From a virus, in IMG/VR virus record IMGVR_UViG_3300025102_000294, positions 1 through 23,769 of that record: a stretch of 23,769 nt of DNA, one strand, 5' to 3'. Each line of letters opens with the position of its first letter. Positions within the stretch are counted from its first letter, which is position 1. A program made the position numbers and the translations under genes. The notes beneath the pieces are model-generated. The model searched no databases. It was not told the DNA's origin and saw only the letters and a program-made list of their open reading frames with translations. Shown piece by piece: positions 11,008 to 20,777 of this stretch.

Positions 11008-11059
11008 TATATTAGCCTCGGCCATCAGGTGGTCGAATCATTTGTTTTTTCAGTCTAGG

Positions 11060-11091
11060 AGCCTCCGGAACGCCGGGGGCTTCTTTTTTTT
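11060..11091 (+). terminator. Strong intrinsic terminator ending the late genes
   Basis: AGCCTCCGG (11060-11068) pairs with CCGGGGGCT (11073-11081), including one T-G pair, around loop AACG, followed by a T-rich run to 11091 (eight consecutive T). It is separated from the phosphoesterase stop by about 50 bp of sequence in which I see no gene. It insulates the late unit from promoter P1. Confidence 0.9.
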
Positions 11092-11100
11092 GTGTCAAAA

Positions 11101-11137
11101 TTAGGAAACAAGGAAAGGCTGTCCTATCTTTGGGACA
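11101..11137 (+). promoter_or_regulatory. Promoter P1, Bacteroidota type, with palindromic operator
   Basis: The -7 box TATCTTTG (11125-11132) matches TAnnTTTG exactly. Twenty nt upstream is TTAG (11101-11104), a one-base departure from the TTTG box. The -7 box is exactly enclosed by TGTCC (11120-11124) and GGACA (11133-11137), a perfect 5-bp inverted repeat with an 8-nt spacer, which is a likely regulator site. The final A of the repeat is the A of the ATG at 11137. The whole region is homologous to promoter P2. It should drive the 11137-19773 operon. Confidence 0.75.
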
Positions 11138-11334
11138 TGAGACCAACACCTGAAAACATCACGGCCATGATTGCAGAACAAGGCTACGGCGGCGTCAAGA
11201 AAGCCGTCCGAGCAAGCTACTGGGAGCTCTACCGCCTCGGATACAACGCCAAGGAAATGAAAGAGGCGTTGAGCCGTGAGTACGGCACCGAGGACGCATT
11301 CATCCGGAACATGATTTACTTCGAATTAAACTAA
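11137..11334 (+). CDS. 65-residue protein, first gene of the early operon
   Basis: I use ATG 11137 because a GTG at 11092 in the same frame would place codons across the promoter. The ATG is only 4 nt after the -7 box, so transcription would start at or next to it and the mRNA would be leaderless; a second in-frame ATG at 11167 is the alternative. The product is MRPTPENITAMIAEQGYG and then a helix-rich domain (VKKAVRASYWELYRLGYN, KEMKEALSREYG). No known family is recognised. The size, first position in the operon and helical content would fit a small regulatory or host-takeover protein, but that is inference. Confidence 0.65.
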   Translation: MRPTPENITAMIAEQGYGGVKKAVRASYWELYRLGYNAKEMKEALSREYGTEDAFIRNMIYFELN

Positions 11335-11345
11335 ACCCCAAACAA

Positions 11346-11582
11346 ATGGCAAAGCCCACACACAAGACGAGGCTCCTTGACTACCTCAACCAACACGGAA
11401 CCATCACCTCGCTCGAGGCCATCCGCGACCTCGGCAACACGCGCCTCAGCGCAACCGTTTTCGACCTACGCCGCCAAGGCCACGAAATCGTCTCTCGCCC
11501 GGTGCGCGTCCCGAACCGCTGGGGCGGTGAGACGGAAGTCGCTCGGTATGTGTATCACCCAACAACCACCCCCAATGGATAA
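11346..11582 (+). CDS. Small helix-turn-helix DNA-binding protein
   Basis: The 78-residue product resembles the phage helix-turn-helix family HTH_39: KTRLLDYLNQHGTITSLEAI followed by RDLGNTRLSATVFDLRRQG (about residues 7-45), with the wing-like HEIVSRPVRVPNRWGGETEV and an aromatic C-terminus (ARYVYHPTT). Proteins of this type are common in phages and mobile elements and probably bind DNA as small regulators. It is the second gene after promoter P1, so it is a candidate for binding the palindromes at P1 and P2, though nothing in the sequence proves this. ATG 11346 is 11 bp after the upstream stop; its stop overlaps the next start by 8 bp. Confidence 0.75.
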   Translation: MAKPTHKTRLLDYLNQHGTITSLEAIRDLGNTRLSATVFDLRRQGHEIVSRPVRVPNRWGGETEVARYVYHPTTTPNG

Positions 11583-12694: not shown

Positions 12695-12930
12695 GTGGCT
12701 GGGACTTCCGATGGAGTGAAGGGCGCCCGGGAAAGCCGGGCGTCTACCTCCTGTGCTGGATGAGCCCGAACGACGACAAGTGGCCGACCGCTTACGAGAT
12801 ACACGAATGGAACGGGACGCACTGGGTAACCTTCAGACCCAACCAAGTCCTCCCAACACACTGGCAGAAAATCACGAGCCCTGCCCTCGACATTTTAGAA
12901 ATGAAGGAATACGAAAACGCTACAACATGA
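12691..12930 (+). CDS. 79-residue DUF551-like protein
   Basis: The GTG start at 12691 overlaps the upstream TGA (GTGA). The product has the pattern PGKPGVYLLCWMSPNDDKWP, then AYEIHEWNGTHWVTF and LPTHWQKI. This recalls the DUF551 family (a 'price-tag' arrangement of a value-entry segment and a closing THWMPLP-like motif), which is common in phages and of unknown function. The final residues (ALDILEMKEYENATT) are a short helix. Its TGA overlaps the next ATG. Family assignment is moderate; a role is not known. Confidence 0.6.
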   Translation: MSGWDFRWSEGRPGKPGVYLLCWMSPNDDKWPTAYEIHEWNGTHWVTFRPNQVLPTHWQKITSPALDILEMKEYENATT

Positions 12931-13178
12931 AAAAGCACAACGCCCGATGGACCGAAGCCGACGAAAGACAAATGCTTCACCTCCACGCTCAACACAAGAG
13001 CCCCGACGAAATGTCCAATGTCATGGGACGAACTCCCAAGGCCATCGCCCTACGTCTAACCCAAAAGCGCCTCAAGCCGTACCGCGCACCAAAAGCGTCC
13101 AAGTACACTAAGTACACCAACGTCCCGCGCAAGACGGTGAAGTGGTTTTGGGGGGCCCTTGAAATCACGAAGTTTTAA
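12927..13178 (+). CDS. Myb/SANT-like DNA-binding protein
   Basis: The start is ATG 12927, overlapping the upstream TGA; longer in-frame starts would run through the previous gene. The 83-residue product has a Myb/SANT-like helix-turn-helix: ARWTEADERQMLHLHAQHKS, then DEMSNVMGRTPKAIALRLTQ (residues 6-46). The Trp8, the GRTPKAI turn and the following basic helix fit DNA recognition. The C-terminal half is strongly basic (KPYRAPKASKYTKYTNVPRK), which could add non-specific DNA binding. A regulatory or replication-accessory role is inferred. Confidence 0.75.
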   Translation: MKKHNARWTEADERQMLHLHAQHKSPDEMSNVMGRTPKAIALRLTQKRLKPYRAPKASKYTKYTNVPRKTVKWFWGALEITKF

Positions 13179-13181
13179 GCC

Positions 13182-13364
13182 ATGAAAACCTTTGAGGATT
13201 GCCTTGAGTGTGGTAAGATTGGCACCATGACCGTGGAACGAGTCATTGGCCACACGGTTGGAGGTAGTGCCATTCAACAACAGGAATACCACTGCGACAA
13301 ATGCGACAGCGATTGGAGCGTGTGGTTGGAACAAGTAGCAATTTCACGAACAATGACATCATGA
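13182..13364 (+). CDS. 60-residue zinc-ribbon protein
   Basis: Two CxxC pairs are visible: C7-x2-C10 (CLECG) and C38-x2-C41 (CDKCD), separated by a beta-like segment (TMTVERVIGHTVGG). This is the usual layout of a zinc ribbon. Such tiny proteins often act as transcription or nuclease cofactors; no more can be said. ATG 13182 is 3 bp after the upstream stop and the TGA overlaps the next gene's ATG at 13361. Confidence 0.65.
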   Translation: MKTFEDCLECGKIGTMTVERVIGHTVGGSAIQQQEYHCDKCDSDWSVWLEQVAISRTMTS

Positions 13365-13579
13365 AGGAATACATCTGCAAACACTACGGGAGCCTTGACA
13401 AGTGCGCCGAGGAGCTCAACGTCGGTCGGTCGACCGTGTACCGTTGGGTCCAAAGCAACCCCCGGGGAATCTTGCTCCACGCGCCCGAGATTCTACGCGA
13501 CAAGGACACGACGTCCTTGGAGCTTGTGTCGGAGGTCGTACACCGTGAGGGCCAGCTCACAAAAGCCGAGGACGCATGA
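13361..13579 (+). CDS. Small helix-turn-helix regulator
   Basis: ATG 13361 overlaps the preceding TGA (ATGA), giving 72 residues; a longer start at 13301 would overlap the zinc-ribbon gene heavily. Residues 9-31 (YGSLDKCAEELNVGRSTVYR) form a clear helix-turn-helix: the alanine and glycine in the turn and the RSTVYRW recognition helix resemble Cro/C1-type or resolvase-type DNA binders. The rest is acidic and helical (PEILRDKDTTSLELVSEVVH), which could be a dimerisation part. It is another candidate for the operator seen at the two promoters. Its TGA overlaps the next ATG. Confidence 0.7.
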   Translation: MKEYICKHYGSLDKCAEELNVGRSTVYRWVQSNPRGILLHAPEILRDKDTTSLELVSEVVHREGQLTKAEDA

Positions 13580-14586: not shown

Positions 14587-15258
14587 ATGGAAAGAGAATT
14601 TCGAGGGGTATGGATTCCCGCCGAGGTGTGGTTGGACAAGAGGCTCACCCTTGTCGAGCGTGCTTTGTTGGCCGAGATTGATTCGTTCAGCGGAGCCGGG
14701 AAGACATTCCACAAGTGCAACGACACCATTCAGACCGAGTACGGCATAAGCCGCAACACCATTTCGAGGGCTTTGCGTAAACTTGAGGCGCTCCGATTCA
14801 TCCAGGTGAACTTCAACGGGAGGGTCCGTCATTGCTCAACTCGTGCAGGCAGCATCCCCAAAATGGGGAGGCAGAGTCCCCAAAATGGGGAGGCAGCATC
14901 CCCAAATGATACCCCTACTAACAAAGTAGAAAGAACAAAGAACAACACAATGAAAAAGAGAGGGGCACGCCCGCACGGTTTGGAGGAGGTGGTTGAAGCC
15001 TTCAAAGCCGTGCAAGCCTCCGAAGACGACGCGATGGCCTTTTGGGATTATTACGAGGCCAACGGGTGGACGCAAGGCAGGGGCAAACCCATCAAAGATT
15101 GGAAAGCCGCCGCGCGTGGCTGGATTCGTAGAACTGGACAATGGAAAACAAATGAACGAACTCGCAAAGGCACAACAACAAATGGTCCAACGGACGGCTC
15201 ACTCATTGAGCAACATCTCCGCCGCCTCTCGGATGGACCCGGTGGAGGCATGGAGTAA
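14587..15258 (+). CDS. Replication initiator with winged-helix domain
   Basis: ATG 14587 gives 223 residues; upstream in-frame codons belong to the preceding gene. The N-terminal domain (about residues 8-80) is a winged helix of the phage replication-initiator type: GVWIPAEVWLDKRLTLVERA, then EYGISRNTISRALRKLEALR and the wing FIQVNFNGRVRH. Residues 84-130 are a low-complexity linker that contains the iteron-like DNA repeats. The C-terminal domain has MAFWDYYEANGWTQGRGKPI and DWKAAARGWIRR, typical of phage replisome organisers. These proteins bind the origin and recruit helicase. The two-domain layout with iterons in the linker resembles lambda O. It overlaps the next gene by 107 bp. Confidence 0.8.
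   Translation: MEREFRGVWIPAEVWLDKRLTLVERALLAEIDSFSGAGKTFHKCNDTIQTEYGISRNTISRALRKLEALRFIQVNFNGRVRHCSTRAGSIPKMGRQSPQNGEAASPNDTPTNKVERTKNNTMKKRGARPHGLEEVVEAFKAVQASEDDAMAFWDYYEANGWTQGRGKPIKDWKAAARGWIRRTGQWKTNERTRKGTTTNGPTDGSLIEQHLRRLSDGPGGGME
14848..14913 (+). repeat. Iteron-like 22-bp repeats inside the initiator gene (putative origin)
   Basis: Unit 1 (14848-14869) and unit 2 (14870-14891) match at 20 of 22 positions and share the core TCCCCA-AAA-TGGGGA, a perfect 6-bp inverted repeat around AAA. Unit 3 (14892-14913) repeats GGCAGCATCCCCAAA exactly and then diverges. The 22-bp period is about two helix turns, so the sites lie on one face of the DNA, as in iteron arrays. Because 22 is not a multiple of three, the same bases are read in different frames in each unit (SIPKMG versus SPQNGE versus SPND); conservation is therefore at DNA level. 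Confidence 0.75.
14903..14962 (+). other. AT-rich stretch, possible DNA unwinding element
   Basis: Only 20 of these 60 bases are G or C, in a GC-rich window. It begins at the end of the last iteron-like unit and extends downstream. This iteron-plus-AT-rich arrangement is the layout of lambda-type origins. It also encodes the Asn/Lys/Thr-rich linker of the initiator, so amino-acid composition contributes to the AT content. Confidence 0.5.
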
Positions 15259-15796: not shown

Positions 15797-16163
15797 CGCG
15801 GTCTTCTCTCAATACGTGCGACTCCGCGCCACCGACGACACCGGTCACGGCGAGTGCTATACCTGCGGCTCCCGTCGGCATTGGTCCGAGGTAGACGCGG
15901 GCCACTTTATGAGCCGGGCCTGTATGTCGACCCGATGGCATGAGGACAATGTCATGTTCCAATGTAAACGGTGCAACGGGTTCCGGTCGGGTGAGCAGTT
16001 CCTGTTCGCTCGCAACTTGGACGCCCAGTTTGGAGAGGGTAAGGCCGAGGAGCTTTTCATCAAGTCCAAGCAAACGCGCAAATGGACCCGCGCCGAGCTT
16101 GAGCAAATGTACCACCACTACAAACGCCTTGTGGATGAACTCCGCTCGTCGAAAGGGATTTGA
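15780..16163 (+). CDS. ninG: NinG/Rap-like recombination protein
   Basis: ATG 15780 gives 127 residues; a 17-bp overlap with the upstream gene remains. The NinG pattern is clear: C26-x2-C29 (CYTCG), WSEVDAGHFMSRA (35-47, with the DAGHF signature), TRWHEDNVMFQCKRCN (51-66, including the second CxxC, C62-x2-C65) and FRSGEQFLF. Lambda NinG/Rap is a recombination endonuclease cutting branched DNA (Holliday or D-loop structures). This copy is shorter than lambda's (about 200 residues), as often in other phages. It fits phage DNA recombination or resolution during replication. The C-terminal helical part (WTRAELEQMYHHYKRLVDEL) is family-like. Confidence 0.9.
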   Translation: MVKKVDAVFSQYVRLRATDDTGHGECYTCGSRRHWSEVDAGHFMSRACMSTRWHEDNVMFQCKRCNGFRSGEQFLFARNLDAQFGEGKAEELFIKSKQTRKWTRAELEQMYHHYKRLVDELRSSKGI

Positions 16164-16626
16164 GGCGTGGTTCGTTGAGAACTACGACGACCTTGTGGCC
16201 TCGGCCCAGTCGTTTCACCCGGACGGGCGTGACCTCGTCCACAACGTGTACCTCCGATGCATCGACGCGCTGGCAAGCACCGGCCGACCGATTGACAAAT
16301 ACGCCGCCTACTTCCGGCGGGCCATGTGGATAGAATCAACGAGAGGGGCTTTTAAACGGCTTTTCACGTATGTAGACGCCCCTCAAAACGAGTTGGGCAA
16401 CCCTGACCCCTCCCGCGACCCTTTCGAGGCCGAGAACGCGCTAATTTTAACCCGGCACCTCGCATGGTTTGACCGCACCGTCCTGAACCTGTACCTCGAC
16501 GGGTACAACCTCCGGCAAGTAGCAAGAGAATCCGGCATACCTCCGACCACGCTTTACCAGTCACTCCACCGAAGCAAAACCAAACTCCGCCATGTTCATC
16601 GTCAGCGCACAAACAAGGGCAAATAG
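16135..16626 (+). CDS. Sigma-70-family (ECF-like) sigma factor
   Basis: ATG 16135 gives 163 residues and overlaps ninG by 29 bp; the longer in-frame form would cover most of ninG. Region 2 is seen at about residues 16-75: YDDLVASAQSFHPDGRDLVH, then NVYLRCIDAL and YAAYFRRAMWIESTRGAFKR, including the -10 recognition/melting helix. Region 4 is at about 110-153: FDRTVLNLYLDGYNLRQVAR, then ESGIPPTTLYQSLHRSKTKL, a helix-turn-helix for the upstream element. Such a small two-region protein should redirect host RNA polymerase, plausibly to phage late promoters. Some phage relatives have lost activity, so function is likely but untested. Confidence 0.8.
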   Translation: MNSARRKGFEAWFVENYDDLVASAQSFHPDGRDLVHNVYLRCIDALASTGRPIDKYAAYFRRAMWIESTRGAFKRLFTYVDAPQNELGNPDPSRDPFEAENALILTRHLAWFDRTVLNLYLDGYNLRQVARESGIPPTTLYQSLHRSKTKLRHVHRQRTNKGK

Positions 16627-16999
16627 ACTCAACACCTGCCGGGAGTGTGAACACTTCGTCGAGACCACCAAAAGTTGCGGGCCTCTCGTCACCGAGGCGT
16701 TCACCGACTCAAAGCTCTGTGGGTGCCATATGCCAACCAAGACACGCCTCAAGTGGGCCGAGTGTCCCCTTGGCAAATGGGAGGCCGTCATAACATCCGA
16801 ACAACTCGCCGAGGTGCAAGCGTTCATCGACATCGTTGCCAGCGACCCTAAAAGCCTGACCGACCAAGACCTCGCCGACCTGTACAACCGTATCTTGGGC
16901 ACCAATGAACAAGCCACCTCTTGCGGGGGGTGTAACCGCAAGATGCTCAAGACCCTGAAAAAACTCATCAATGAAAGCCAACGAAACAATCCCAAGTGA
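16592..16999 (+). CDS. Cysteine-rich zinc-binding protein
   Basis: The 135-residue product overlaps the sigma gene by 35 bp. Residues 14-60 hold six cysteines: C16-x2-C19 (NTCRECE), C29, C43-x-C45 (LCGCHMPTK) and C58 (CPLGKW), a layout I associate with a family in Bacteroidota phages. A second pair, C111-x2-C114 (SCGGCNRK), lies near the C-terminus after a helical linker. Zinc or iron-sulfur binding is likely. The position beside the sigma factor could hint at transcription control. No catalytic residues are identifiable. Confidence 0.65.
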   Translation: MFIVSAQTRANRLNTCRECEHFVETTKSCGPLVTEAFTDSKLCGCHMPTKTRLKWAECPLGKWEAVITSEQLAEVQAFIDIVASDPKSLTDQDLADLYNRILGTNEQATSCGGCNRKMLKTLKKLINESQRNNPK

Positions 17000-17327
17000 A
17001 TCCTTCTACCTCGCCGTGGGCACGCTTGCCCATCAGGGCGGGTACAGAATGACAGAGGACGAAGCCCTACAACGTGCCCAACGTGGCGTCACTCGCCTCG
17101 GACATACGTGGGAAGAGATAGTGAGCCCCGTGCGCCTTCGGCCATTGGTAGACACTCGCAAAATGGTGTCGTTTTTTCTGCGCGACCAAGGGTGGACCTA
17201 CAAGGCCATCGGTCAAGTCATGAACCGCGACCACGCCACAGCCGTCCACCATGTGCGGTCCCTGTTTTGGTTGATTGAAACCGAAGAACACATGAGCCGC
17301 AAATACAACGAATTCCTCTCCGCATGA
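16971..17327 (+). CDS. Stand-alone DnaA domain IV (DNA-binding domain)
   Basis: The 118-residue product matches the C-terminal DNA-binding domain of DnaA: LRPLVDTRKMVSFFLRDQG (56-74), TYKAIGQVMNRDHATAVHHV (76-95). The RDHATAVHH segment corresponds to the DnaA signature (RDHTTVxH), which contacts the DnaA box. The N-terminal 50 residues are unlike DnaA and there are no AAA+ motifs, so it cannot act as an initiator ATPase. It could compete for host DnaA boxes, mark phage sequences, or act as a repressor. It overlaps the upstream gene by 29 bp and its TGA overlaps the next ATG. Confidence 0.8.
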   Translation: MKANETIPSESFYLAVGTLAHQGGYRMTEDEALQRAQRGVTRLGHTWEEIVSPVRLRPLVDTRKMVSFFLRDQGWTYKAIGQVMNRDHATAVHHVRSLFWLIETEEHMSRKYNEFLSA

Positions 17328-17575
17328 CCAAGCCCCTCACCTTCCGCAAAGCCAAGCGCCTCCTCGGTCAATGTGACGACTGGGTACTCTTTACAGCCAA
17401 AAACAACGGCGACGAAACGTGCAACCTTGAGTGCGCAACCATGACCTCTACCTCGTGGGCTCTCTTGATTGACTTTGCAACCGCCGACGAAAACTTCTAC
17501 AATGCCCTTGAGACCATCCTCAACACGGCCCGTGACATTCGCGAAAACGGCGAATCTACGGACCAACCCGAATAA
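17324..17575 (+). CDS. 83-residue protein of unknown function
   Basis: ATG 17324 overlaps the DnaA-like TGA. The product starts MTKPLTFRKAKRLLGQCDDW, has a central acidic and Thr-rich part (NGDETCNLECATMTSTSW), and ends in a helix (FYNALETILNTARDIREN). Two cysteines six residues apart (CNLECA region) are noted but do not form a known motif. No family is recognised. The next gene's start lies inside this one. Confidence 0.55.
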   Translation: MTKPLTFRKAKRLLGQCDDWVLFTAKNNGDETCNLECATMTSTSWALLIDFATADENFYNALETILNTARDIRENGESTDQPE

Positions 17576-17969
17576 CCCTCGGGCCATACGCAAGGACCAA
17601 CTCAACAAGCTCGTGAAGAGTTTGCAAGAGTTTCCCGAGATGCTTGAAGCACGGCCCATTGTCATCGACAAAGAGGGAACCGTCCTTGGGGGCAATATGC
17701 GCCTCAAAGCGGCCCAGCTTGCCGGACTCAATGAGGTGCCGGTTTTTGTGCGAGAGTGGAGCGAGGAGAAGGACCCCGAGTTTATCATCAAGGACAACGT
17801 ACCCTCCGGCGAATGGGATTGGGAGATGGTGGGCAACAACGAAGACCCCGAACAGTTGCAAGAGTGGGGCATGACCATCCCTTGGGACAACACCGAGGGA
17901 GAGGACCAACAAGAGGACACACCAAACACACCGAAACAATGCAAGCATTGCGACAAGATTCTTCCGTGA
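17532..17969 (+). CDS. ParB-like (ParB/Srx fold) protein
   Basis: I take GTG 17532 as the start (145 residues), because the family usually begins a few residues before LRTNPNNPR; an ATG at 17502 in the same frame is the alternative. The ParB/Srx-fold part spans residues 9-70: NPRAIRKDQLNKLVKSLQEF, then RPIVIDKEGTVLGGNMRLKA and LNEVPVF. The GGNMRLKAA element corresponds to the GERR-type nucleotide-binding motif, here with Asn in place of Glu. The C-terminal tail is acidic (EDQQEDTPNTPKQ) and ends CKHCDKILP. The position next to the small terminase suggests a role in DNA modification, packaging or partition; this cannot be decided here. It overlaps the upstream gene by 44 bp. Confidence 0.75.
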   Translation: MTFAKTANLRTNPNNPRAIRKDQLNKLVKSLQEFPEMLEARPIVIDKEGTVLGGNMRLKAAQLAGLNEVPVFVREWSEEKDPEFIIKDNVPSGEWDWEMVGNNEDPEQLQEWGMTIPWDNTEGEDQQEDTPNTPKQCKHCDKILP

Positions 17970-19780: not shown

Positions 19781-19827
19781 TGTCCTAAAATTTGGACAGA
19801 GGGGAAACTTGTCTTATCTTTGGGACA
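19781..19827 (+). promoter_or_regulatory. Promoter P2, Bacteroidota type, with two palindromic operators
   Basis: TTTG (19791-19794) and TATCTTTG (19815-19822) are separated by exactly 20 nt, which matches the Bacteroidota sigma-factor consensus. The -33 box is covered by TGTCC-N8-GGACA (19781-19798). The -7 box is enclosed by TGTCT-N8-GGACA (19810-19827), one base off the perfect repeat seen at P1. The two palindromes start 29 bp apart. The last A of the second repeat is the A of the ATG at 19827. Confidence 0.85.
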
Positions 19828-20027
19828 TGGAAAACAACAACACAACCACCGCCGGGGAGACCATGACCTTCGAGTACACCTATTACAACAGGATTGACCG
19901 AGACGACTGGAGCAAGGGCACCATCCAAGCACTCACCAAGGAAGGTGCAATCAATCGCATCAACAGAAAGCTACACCTCACAGGAATGAACCTCAAGCGT
20001 AGCAGTGTCAAACTTGTGAAGCCATGA
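19827..20027 (+). CDS. 66-residue protein in its own transcription unit
   Basis: The start is ATG 19827, 4 nt after the -7 box of P2; upstream in-frame codons are a shadow of terL. The mRNA would be leaderless, or translation might begin at a second in-frame ATG at 19863, after an A/C-rich stretch. The mature-looking part begins MTFEYTYYNRIDRDDWSKGT, with IQALTKEGAINRINRKLHL and a basic end (KRSSVKLVKP). A small alpha/beta protein with a positive C-terminus is suggested; no family is recognised. The promoter is homologous to that of the early operon, and a terminator follows, so it is expressed in parallel with the early genes but alone. A regulatory role is plausible, not shown. Confidence 0.7.
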   Translation: MENNNTTTAGETMTFEYTYYNRIDRDDWSKGTIQALTKEGAINRINRKLHLTGMNLKRSSVKLVKP

Positions 20028-20046: not shown

Positions 20047-20071
20047 AAGAGCCTCCGGGCTCTTTTTTTTT
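20047..20071 (+). terminator. Intrinsic terminator after the P2 gene
   Basis: AAGAGCC (20047-20053) pairs perfectly with GGCTCTT (20058-20064) around loop TCCG, followed by a run of nine T (20063-20071). It shares GAGCCTCCGG with the terminator at 11060. It separates the P2 unit from the tail genes that begin at 20115, so those need their own promoter or antitermination. Confidence 0.9.
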
Positions 20072-20114
20072 GCCTTAACTTTCAGAGCGTAAGCAAACCA
20101 CGAAACCGCGTCTT

Positions 20115-20777
20115 ATGAGTGTGAAGCTATCCCTCCCCGCAACCTTTGCCGACCTCACCTTGCGCCATCTTCAGGTGCTTGAGACGTCCGACGACCCCAT
20201 GACGTGCGTGGGCGCCGTTACGGGCACCGATTGGGAGGAATTAAGGGATATGCCCCGCGCTTTGATTCAAGAGGCATACAACCACCTCCAAACGCTTCGC
20301 AAGGCCGAAACACAACGCCACCTCGAGACGTTCGAGCTCAACGGCACGCGATACGGCTTCGTGCCGAACTGGGACGAGTTCACGGCAGGGGAGTGGATTG
20401 ACGCGGAGCAACTGTGTGGGGACTTTTGGAAAAACGCTCACAAGGTCATGGCTTTGTTGTTCCGTCCCGTCGCAAGGGAGTGGGGCAACCGCTACGAGAT
20501 AGAGCCCTACACGGCCAAGGAAGACGCCGAGGCGTTCCTCGATATGCCAGCGGACCAAGTGGCGGGGGCCCTGCTTTTTTTTTCGACTACCAAAAACGAA
20601 CTTCTGAGCACTTTGCAGTCCTCTTTGATTCAAGCGGCGATGAAGGTGGCGACGACTTCGGGGAGAAGTGGGGGTGGTATCCTGTCCTCCATTCTCTTGC
20701 GGGTGAGGACGTTCTTCGCATCGAAGCCGTCACCAAGCTCACCGTCGGTCATGTATTCACCCACCTCGCATTCCTGA
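20115..20777 (+). CDS. Tail-associated protein, unshifted product
   Basis: The zero-frame reading gives 220 residues. The first 150 look like a real domain: DLTLRHLQVLETSDDPMTCV, FVPNWDEFTAGEWIDAEQLC and NAHKVMALLFRPVAREWGNR, a pattern I associate with tail genes of Bacteroidota phages. After the T9 run (20575-20583) the zero frame continues for a while in a plausible way (NELLSTLQSSLIQAAMK), then becomes Ser/Pro-rich and unlike a protein domain (KPSPSSPSVMYSPTSHS). The expected C-terminal region is instead found in the -1 frame. The short form could be a genuine minor or major product, as with tail-assembly chaperones, or an artefact of a sequence error. Confidence 0.5.
   Translation: MSVKLSLPATFADLTLRHLQVLETSDDPMTCVGAVTGTDWEELRDMPRALIQEAYNHLQTLRKAETQRHLETFELNGTRYGFVPNWDEFTAGEWIDAEQLCGDFWKNAHKVMALLFRPVAREWGNRYEIEPYTAKEDAEAFLDMPADQVAGALLFFSTTKNELLSTLQSSLIQAAMKVATTSGRSGGGILSSILLRVRTFFASKPSPSSPSVMYSPTSHS

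Follow-up and report, generated by a model that had tools for sequence, protein, structure and literature searches.

The window, by which we mean the whole stretch of 23,769 nucleotides analyzed here, is a 23.8-kb viral contig whose main open reading frames (ORFs) all lie on the + strand. Terminase matches support its assignment to an uncultured phage of Bacteroidota: in a search outside metagenomes, the nearest terminases belong mostly to Bacteroidota phages and MAGs, and these matches are distant only (48% for a Chitinophagaceae MAG, 40% for Phocaeicola phages). Two similar promoters, P1 and P2, lie 8.7 kb apart in the contig; P1 precedes the early/replication cluster, while P2 follows the terminase gene and stands ahead of the structural genes. 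The features considered are the following:

11057-11084, + strand: terminator-like hairpin immediately 5' of P1
11101-11104, + strand: -33 position of P1, reading TTAG
11120-11137: P1 site B, TGTCCTATCTTTGGGACA, TGTCC-N8-GGACA enclosing the -7 box
11125-11132, + strand: P1 -7 box TATCTTTG (Bacteroidota consensus)
11137-11334, + strand: P1 ORF, 65 aa, opening the early/replication cluster
11346-11582: winged-helix protein of the early cluster
12927-13178: Myb-like protein of the early cluster
13361-13579, + strand: Cro-like helix-turn-helix (HTH) protein, 72 aa, with recognition helix NVGRSTVYRW; proposed regulator
19781-19798: P2 site A, TGTCCTAAAATTTGGACA, TGTCC-N8-GGACA, at predicted positions -46 to -29 and covering the -33 box
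19791-19794, + strand: P2 -33 box TTTG (Bacteroidota consensus, PMC6847099)
19810-19827: P2 site B, TGTCTTATCTTTGGGACA, TGTCT-N8-GGACA, at predicted positions -17 to +1 and enclosing the -7 box
19815-19822, + strand: P2 -7 box TATCTTTG (Bacteroidota consensus, PMC6847099)
19827, + strand: predicted P2 transcription start, 4 nt downstream of the -7 box (4-5 nt rule, PMC6847099)
19827-20027, + strand: P2 ORF, 66 aa, without a family match
20047-20064, + strand: terminator-like hairpin ending the P2 cassette

By their sequence, P1 and P2 belong to the housekeeping class of Bacteroidota promoters, for which the consensus is TTTG at -33 and TANNTTTG at -7, with a TAHHTTTG rule for the -7 element and transcription beginning 4-5 nt past the -7 box (PMC6847099). 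The box TATCTTTG of both promoters fits TANNTTTG, with no G at two N positions, while the -33 element (TTTG about 19-20 nt upstream) is found in P2 only, P1 having TTAG at equal spacing. The two promoters are 79% identical over 43 nt. They resemble sigma-ABfr promoters (PMC6847099) in their boxes, in the 20-nt spacer that both possess, and in the 4 nt between the -7 box and the predicted start; they differ in that the boxes lie inside palindromes and in that, by the 4-5 nt rule, the predicted start of each transcript is the A of an ATG (11137 and 19827). Transcripts of F. johnsoniae are mostly leadered (PMC6847099). At 11137, P1 abuts MRPTP, so that a leaderless message is predicted there; in L039 (1840-2010), an extra small gene, missing in the window, lies between P1 and the MRPTP gene. 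The P2 ORF has a second in-frame ATG at 19863, preceded by an A/C-rich leader, and this may be its true start. Beyond the P2 cassette, the stretch TTAACTTTCAGAGCGTAAGCAAACCACGAAACCGCGTCTTATGAGTG (20073-20121) stands before the gene next to terminase and is conserved in near relatives; a 76% copy (34 nt) lies at 1676-1709, ahead of another gene. It is possibly a late promoter or leader.

The initial annotation had placed two palindromes on P2, one at each box, and we confirm their positions: TGTCC-TAAAATTT-GGACA lies over the -33 box and TGTCT-TATCTTTG-GGACA around the -7 box, with starts 29 bp apart (19781 vs 19810). Also borne out is its description of P1, which carries the -7 palindrome only and reads TTAG at -33 where P2 has TTTG. 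The arms are complementary at all five positions in the P2 -33 site and the P1 -7 site, and at four of five in the P2 -7 site, where the innermost pair is T vs G. These palindromes resemble regulator sites common to P1 and P2, as had been suggested, with one extra site at P2. We infer that P2 may be under tighter control than P1. Cooperative binding by two dimers and an ordered response of the two promoters, as the initial annotation proposed, gain no support from our analysis; the spacing of the two P2 sites (29 bp in the window, 30 bp in L002) is fixed by the promoter boxes and thus gives no evidence for cooperativity.

The exact motif TGTC-N10-GACA occurs four times in the window, where 0.47 occurrences are expected, and none of 100 shuffles reached this number; three of the four occurrences sit on P1 and P2. 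When the wider collection was scanned for the -7 palindrome, for the -33 right arm together with the -7 box, and for the -33 palindrome, the matches were mostly chance ones in unrelated viruses, indicating that the motif is specific to the family. We also considered site A as a minus-strand terminator (TGTCC...GGACA followed by CTTTTTTT), a candidate rejected on the grounds that the palindrome persists at L002 promoters 2 and 3, where this T-run is missing.

It could be argued that the palindromes are the promoter consensus in disguise, with right arms that are ordinary promoter sequence, left arms that reflect ancestry or chance, and no regulator that reads them. We consider this unlikely, but several observations fit it. 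For generic palindromes (5-bp arms, 8-bp loop) the window shows no enrichment (22 found, ~25 expected), and the right arms overlap ordinary promoter sequence in part (TTTGGA, and GRACAT of the discriminator/start region), which relatives retain in the absence of a palindrome. At -33, the left arm TTGTC is also present in P1-type promoters without the full right arm (L449, L443), where it follows terminator T-tracts. Furthermore, TTTGGAGAA and TATCTTTGGGACATG are conserved in distant relatives whose left arms do not match.

Comparison with relatives shows how the P2 arrangement is distributed. The terminase gene directly adjoins the next conserved gene in most of 80 terminase relatives; since most thus have no P2 unit after terminase, this unit is an optional cassette. 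L410 has one P2-type cassette after terminase, while at positions 1270-2150 of L002 three tandem cassettes, each with a -33-palindrome promoter, a small ORF and a terminator, lie between terminase and the next conserved gene. Together with the window phage, these yield five promoters of the P2 class. All five keep TGTC(C/T)...GGACA at -33, with a centre that varies in position. Their -7 arms are TGTCT/GGACA (window), TGTCG/GGACA, TGCCG/AGGCA, TTCCCG/AGGCA and TACCCG/AGGCA, comprising two of the form TGTC/GACA, one matched substitution, and two that are broken. Across P2-type promoters, therefore, it is the -33 palindrome that stays constant, and the -7 palindrome that varies.

The double arrangement, which the initial annotation had proposed to look for in relatives, is complete at L002 promoter 2, and at L002 promoter 1 it is present with matched substitute -7 arms, TGCC/GGCA; in this homologous P2, both arms have been altered jointly from TGTC/GACA. 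At P2 of L041 the arrangement recurs with other palindromes at both boxes. Here, in the region following terminase (~11170-11225), TTGCTTTCGGAAAGCAA at -33 lies beside GCTGTACATTTACAGC at -7, an unrelated sequence in a like layout. The -33 element TTGCTTTCGGAAAGCAA is a perfect 17-bp palindrome, and its 8-bp arm was reached in only 2 of 400 shuffles. That L041 has other palindromes at the same places counts against a promoter consensus in disguise.

L410 and L002 promoter 3 have lost the -7 palindrome but kept the one at -33, and P1-class promoters show the reverse pattern. Both observations favor a division of labor, in which the -7 palindrome is a repressor operator, while an activator or some other protein specifically serving P2-type accessory promoters binds the -33 palindrome, whose centre lies near -37.5. 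Regulators centred near the -35 region can indeed activate, as do lambda CI and CRP. We nevertheless regard two separate functions as somewhat doubtful: the identical arms TGTCC/GGACA at both places point to one protein, and the -33 boxes of P2-type promoters are good already (TTTGG).

To compare P1-type promoters, we gathered P1 regions by way of the metallophosphatase gene (~75 loci), a search with the P1 ORF protein having given four loci only. The palindrome of P1 reads TGTCC-TATCTTTA-GGACA in L449, TGTCC-TATCTTTG-GGATA in L445/L447, and TGTCC-TATATTTG-ACACA in L446, while in the near relatives L440, L441, L444 and L448 no such P1 palindrome was found. L041/L442 carry TTGTA-CATT-TACAA at P1 and GCTGTA-CATT-TACAGC at P2, and TGTACATTTACA has exactly two occurrences in 12.9 kb of L041, at P1 and at P2.

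We then analyzed the covariation of the arms quantitatively, setting the dyad axis at the middle of the -7 box and scoring five flank pairs in 40 family promoters, a set that does not contain the non-palindromic near relatives L440, L441, L444 and L448. With this fixed axis the -7 flanks pair at 2.73 of 5 positions, and pairing falls to 0.4-1.5 of 5 (maximum 1.48) when the axis is slid by 1-3 bp. When left and right flanks were re-paired between promoters, pairing averaged 2.29 of 5 and none of 20,000 shuffles was as high as 2.73, although the promoters are related and every test of this kind is inflated by relatedness. Taken by themselves, the nine nearest promoters give weak covariation of the -7 arms (p = 0.037); addition of the two L041 promoters, whose -7 box TACATTTA is non-canonical, gives p = 5e-5. 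The same re-pairing test on the -33 palindrome showed no covariation. The joint variation of left and right arms at -7 is a further point against mere promoter consensus.

The most likely regulator, in our analysis of the encoded proteins, is the P22/N15-Cro-like protein at 13361-13579, whose gene follows P1 after ~2.2 kb, within one run of genes. A profile built from 39 family members, searched against the PDB, matches P22 Cro (1rzs, E 5.5e-4) and N15 Cro (2hin/6on0, E 0.029), and the protein matches PHROG 4779, transcriptional regulator. The Pfam P22_Cro score of 18.6 bits is below the cut-off of 30.2, and we therefore use the name Cro-like and assign no family membership. The AlphaFold2 model is all-helical, with five helices, a pLDDT of 96, and the HTH at residues 12-31. 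Cro proteins occupy the top rows of the Foldseek search, but with E > 0.3, and VIA-align comparison of the model with Cro proteins gives modest scores (Z 4.4-5.7).

The recognition helix of this protein tracks the type of operator. Among near relatives, the helix GRSTVYRW is found in exactly the four phages with a TGTCC-type P1 operator (the window phage, L446, L447 and L449), while those without this operator (L442, L440, L441, L444) have T(P/V)VTVRNW. The sequences of L002 and L410 are too short to reach the Cro gene, so this match rests on the other phages. We also scanned the early-region proteins and the metallophosphatase of eight phages, 2,097 residues in total, for positions at which the phages divide in line with operator type. 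Only 12 residues behave in this way; nine of these are in the Cro-like protein, and eight of the nine fall within residues 20-32, the recognition helix. The strongest grouping in other genes places the window with L442, not with L449 (55 positions), indicating that shared descent alone is insufficient to explain the match. Likewise, in a tree computed without the helix, the window Cro is nearer to L442 (path 0.31) than to L449 (0.69), a tree compatible with what may be a single origin of the GRSTVYRW helix. There is one exception: the distant phage L512/L019 has TGTCC/GGACA arms but the helix TEQTVGNW. Since P1 operator type follows the Cro helix and not overall relatedness, these results also argue against palindromes that no regulator reads. 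In related phages, it seems, palindrome and DNA-reading helix change in step.

The early cluster also encodes winged-helix, Myb-like, sigma-like and DnaA-C proteins, any of which might in principle be the regulator. We judge this the least probable of the explanations considered, and rejected these proteins on the basis of the scan, as they contain zero diagnostic residues. In addition, no winged-helix gene was found in three phages that share the operator type, L446, L447 and L449, and identity of the Myb-like protein is 35% in L449 as against 90% in L441, the opposite of the operator pattern. The sigma-like protein (16150-16626) has a weak match to sigma-70 region 4 (Pfam Sigma70_r4_2, E 1.9e-5; PHROG RNA polymerase sigma factor) and is possibly a late-gene regulator. 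The replication cluster includes DnaA C-terminal-like (16971-17327) and ParB N-terminal-like (17502-17969) proteins. Inside an HTH_36 replication gene, three near-identical 16-nt direct repeats (AGGCAGCATCCCCAAA) with a spacing of 22 nt (14847-14906) are possible origin iterons.

Host regulators sometimes control phage promoters, and this is the sole point in favor of a host protein, such as the host SOS repressor, as the factor that binds the sites; we hold this to be very improbable. Different palindromes are found in sister phages whose terminases are nearly identical, and viral contigs in general show no enrichment of the motif. The LexA-like motifs of Bacteroidetes are CTAA-N5-TTAG and GGA-N5-TCC (PMC8565304), and TGTCC-N8-GGACA fits neither; host LexA was rejected on this mismatch.

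The palindromes, their enrichment, the covariation of the -7 arms, the conservation of the -33 palindrome in P2-type promoters, and the operator-helix match are computed results. We propose that the TGTCC-N8-GGACA sites on P1 and P2 are probably operators of the phage's own Cro-like protein. This protein would bind 18-bp operators at the -7 boxes of P1 and P2, and additionally at the P2 -33 box; once bound, it would occupy the -7 box together with the start point, thereby blocking RNA polymerase. Repression of P1 would then constitute negative feedback on the cluster to which the Cro-like protein itself belongs, and P2, which is predicted to drive the accessory small gene between terminase and the structural genes, would be switched off. 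Both the binding of the Cro-like protein to these sites and repression by that binding are steps we infer from sequence comparison.

The proposed system is like that of P22/N15 Cro in its profile match, its all-helical 72-aa model, and its 18-bp palindromic sites overlapping early promoters. In contrast to P22/N15, the window has no apparent divergent CI-type repressor gene (in a 23.8-kb record that is possibly incomplete), and thus no lysis-lysogeny switch is shown for this phage; moreover, the Cro-like gene is mid-cluster, away from its operator, the promoters are of Bacteroidota type, and operator binding is predicted. As in the multiple operators of lambda, P2 has two similar operators just under three helical turns apart, but the distance between these two follows from the promoter boxes, and, unlike OR1-3, the three sites in all are distributed over two promoters 8.7 kb apart. 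The P2 unit is also comparable to moron-type cassettes, in which a promoter, a small ORF and a terminator are inserted between conserved genes: it is absent from most relatives and present as three tandem units in L002. It departs from these in that the cassette promoters bear operators matching the early promoter of the same phage.

More broadly, and more tentatively, it is possible that the -7 box lies inside a phage-specific operator, that this operator and the helix of the Cro-like autoregulator switch jointly between close relatives, and that accessory cassettes spread with an added -33 operator copy, which would place them under the control of the resident Cro. Cro-type operators overlapping promoters are already known; what is new is their setting on Bacteroidota-type promoters, the way operator and helix change to match each other in sister phages, and the cassettes with an extra -33 copy. 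Text searches of the literature found no description of such a system, which is weak evidence given their incomplete coverage.

Little work has addressed gene control in phages of environmental Bacteroidota, and the phage family described here is present in many metagenomes. The system offers a concrete pair that experiments can address, a 72-aa protein with three 18-bp sites, and among its relatives the matched variants of helix and operator form a natural series in which changes of repressor specificity can be studied. If the proposal is true, it would explain how these phages exert control over newly acquired small genes.
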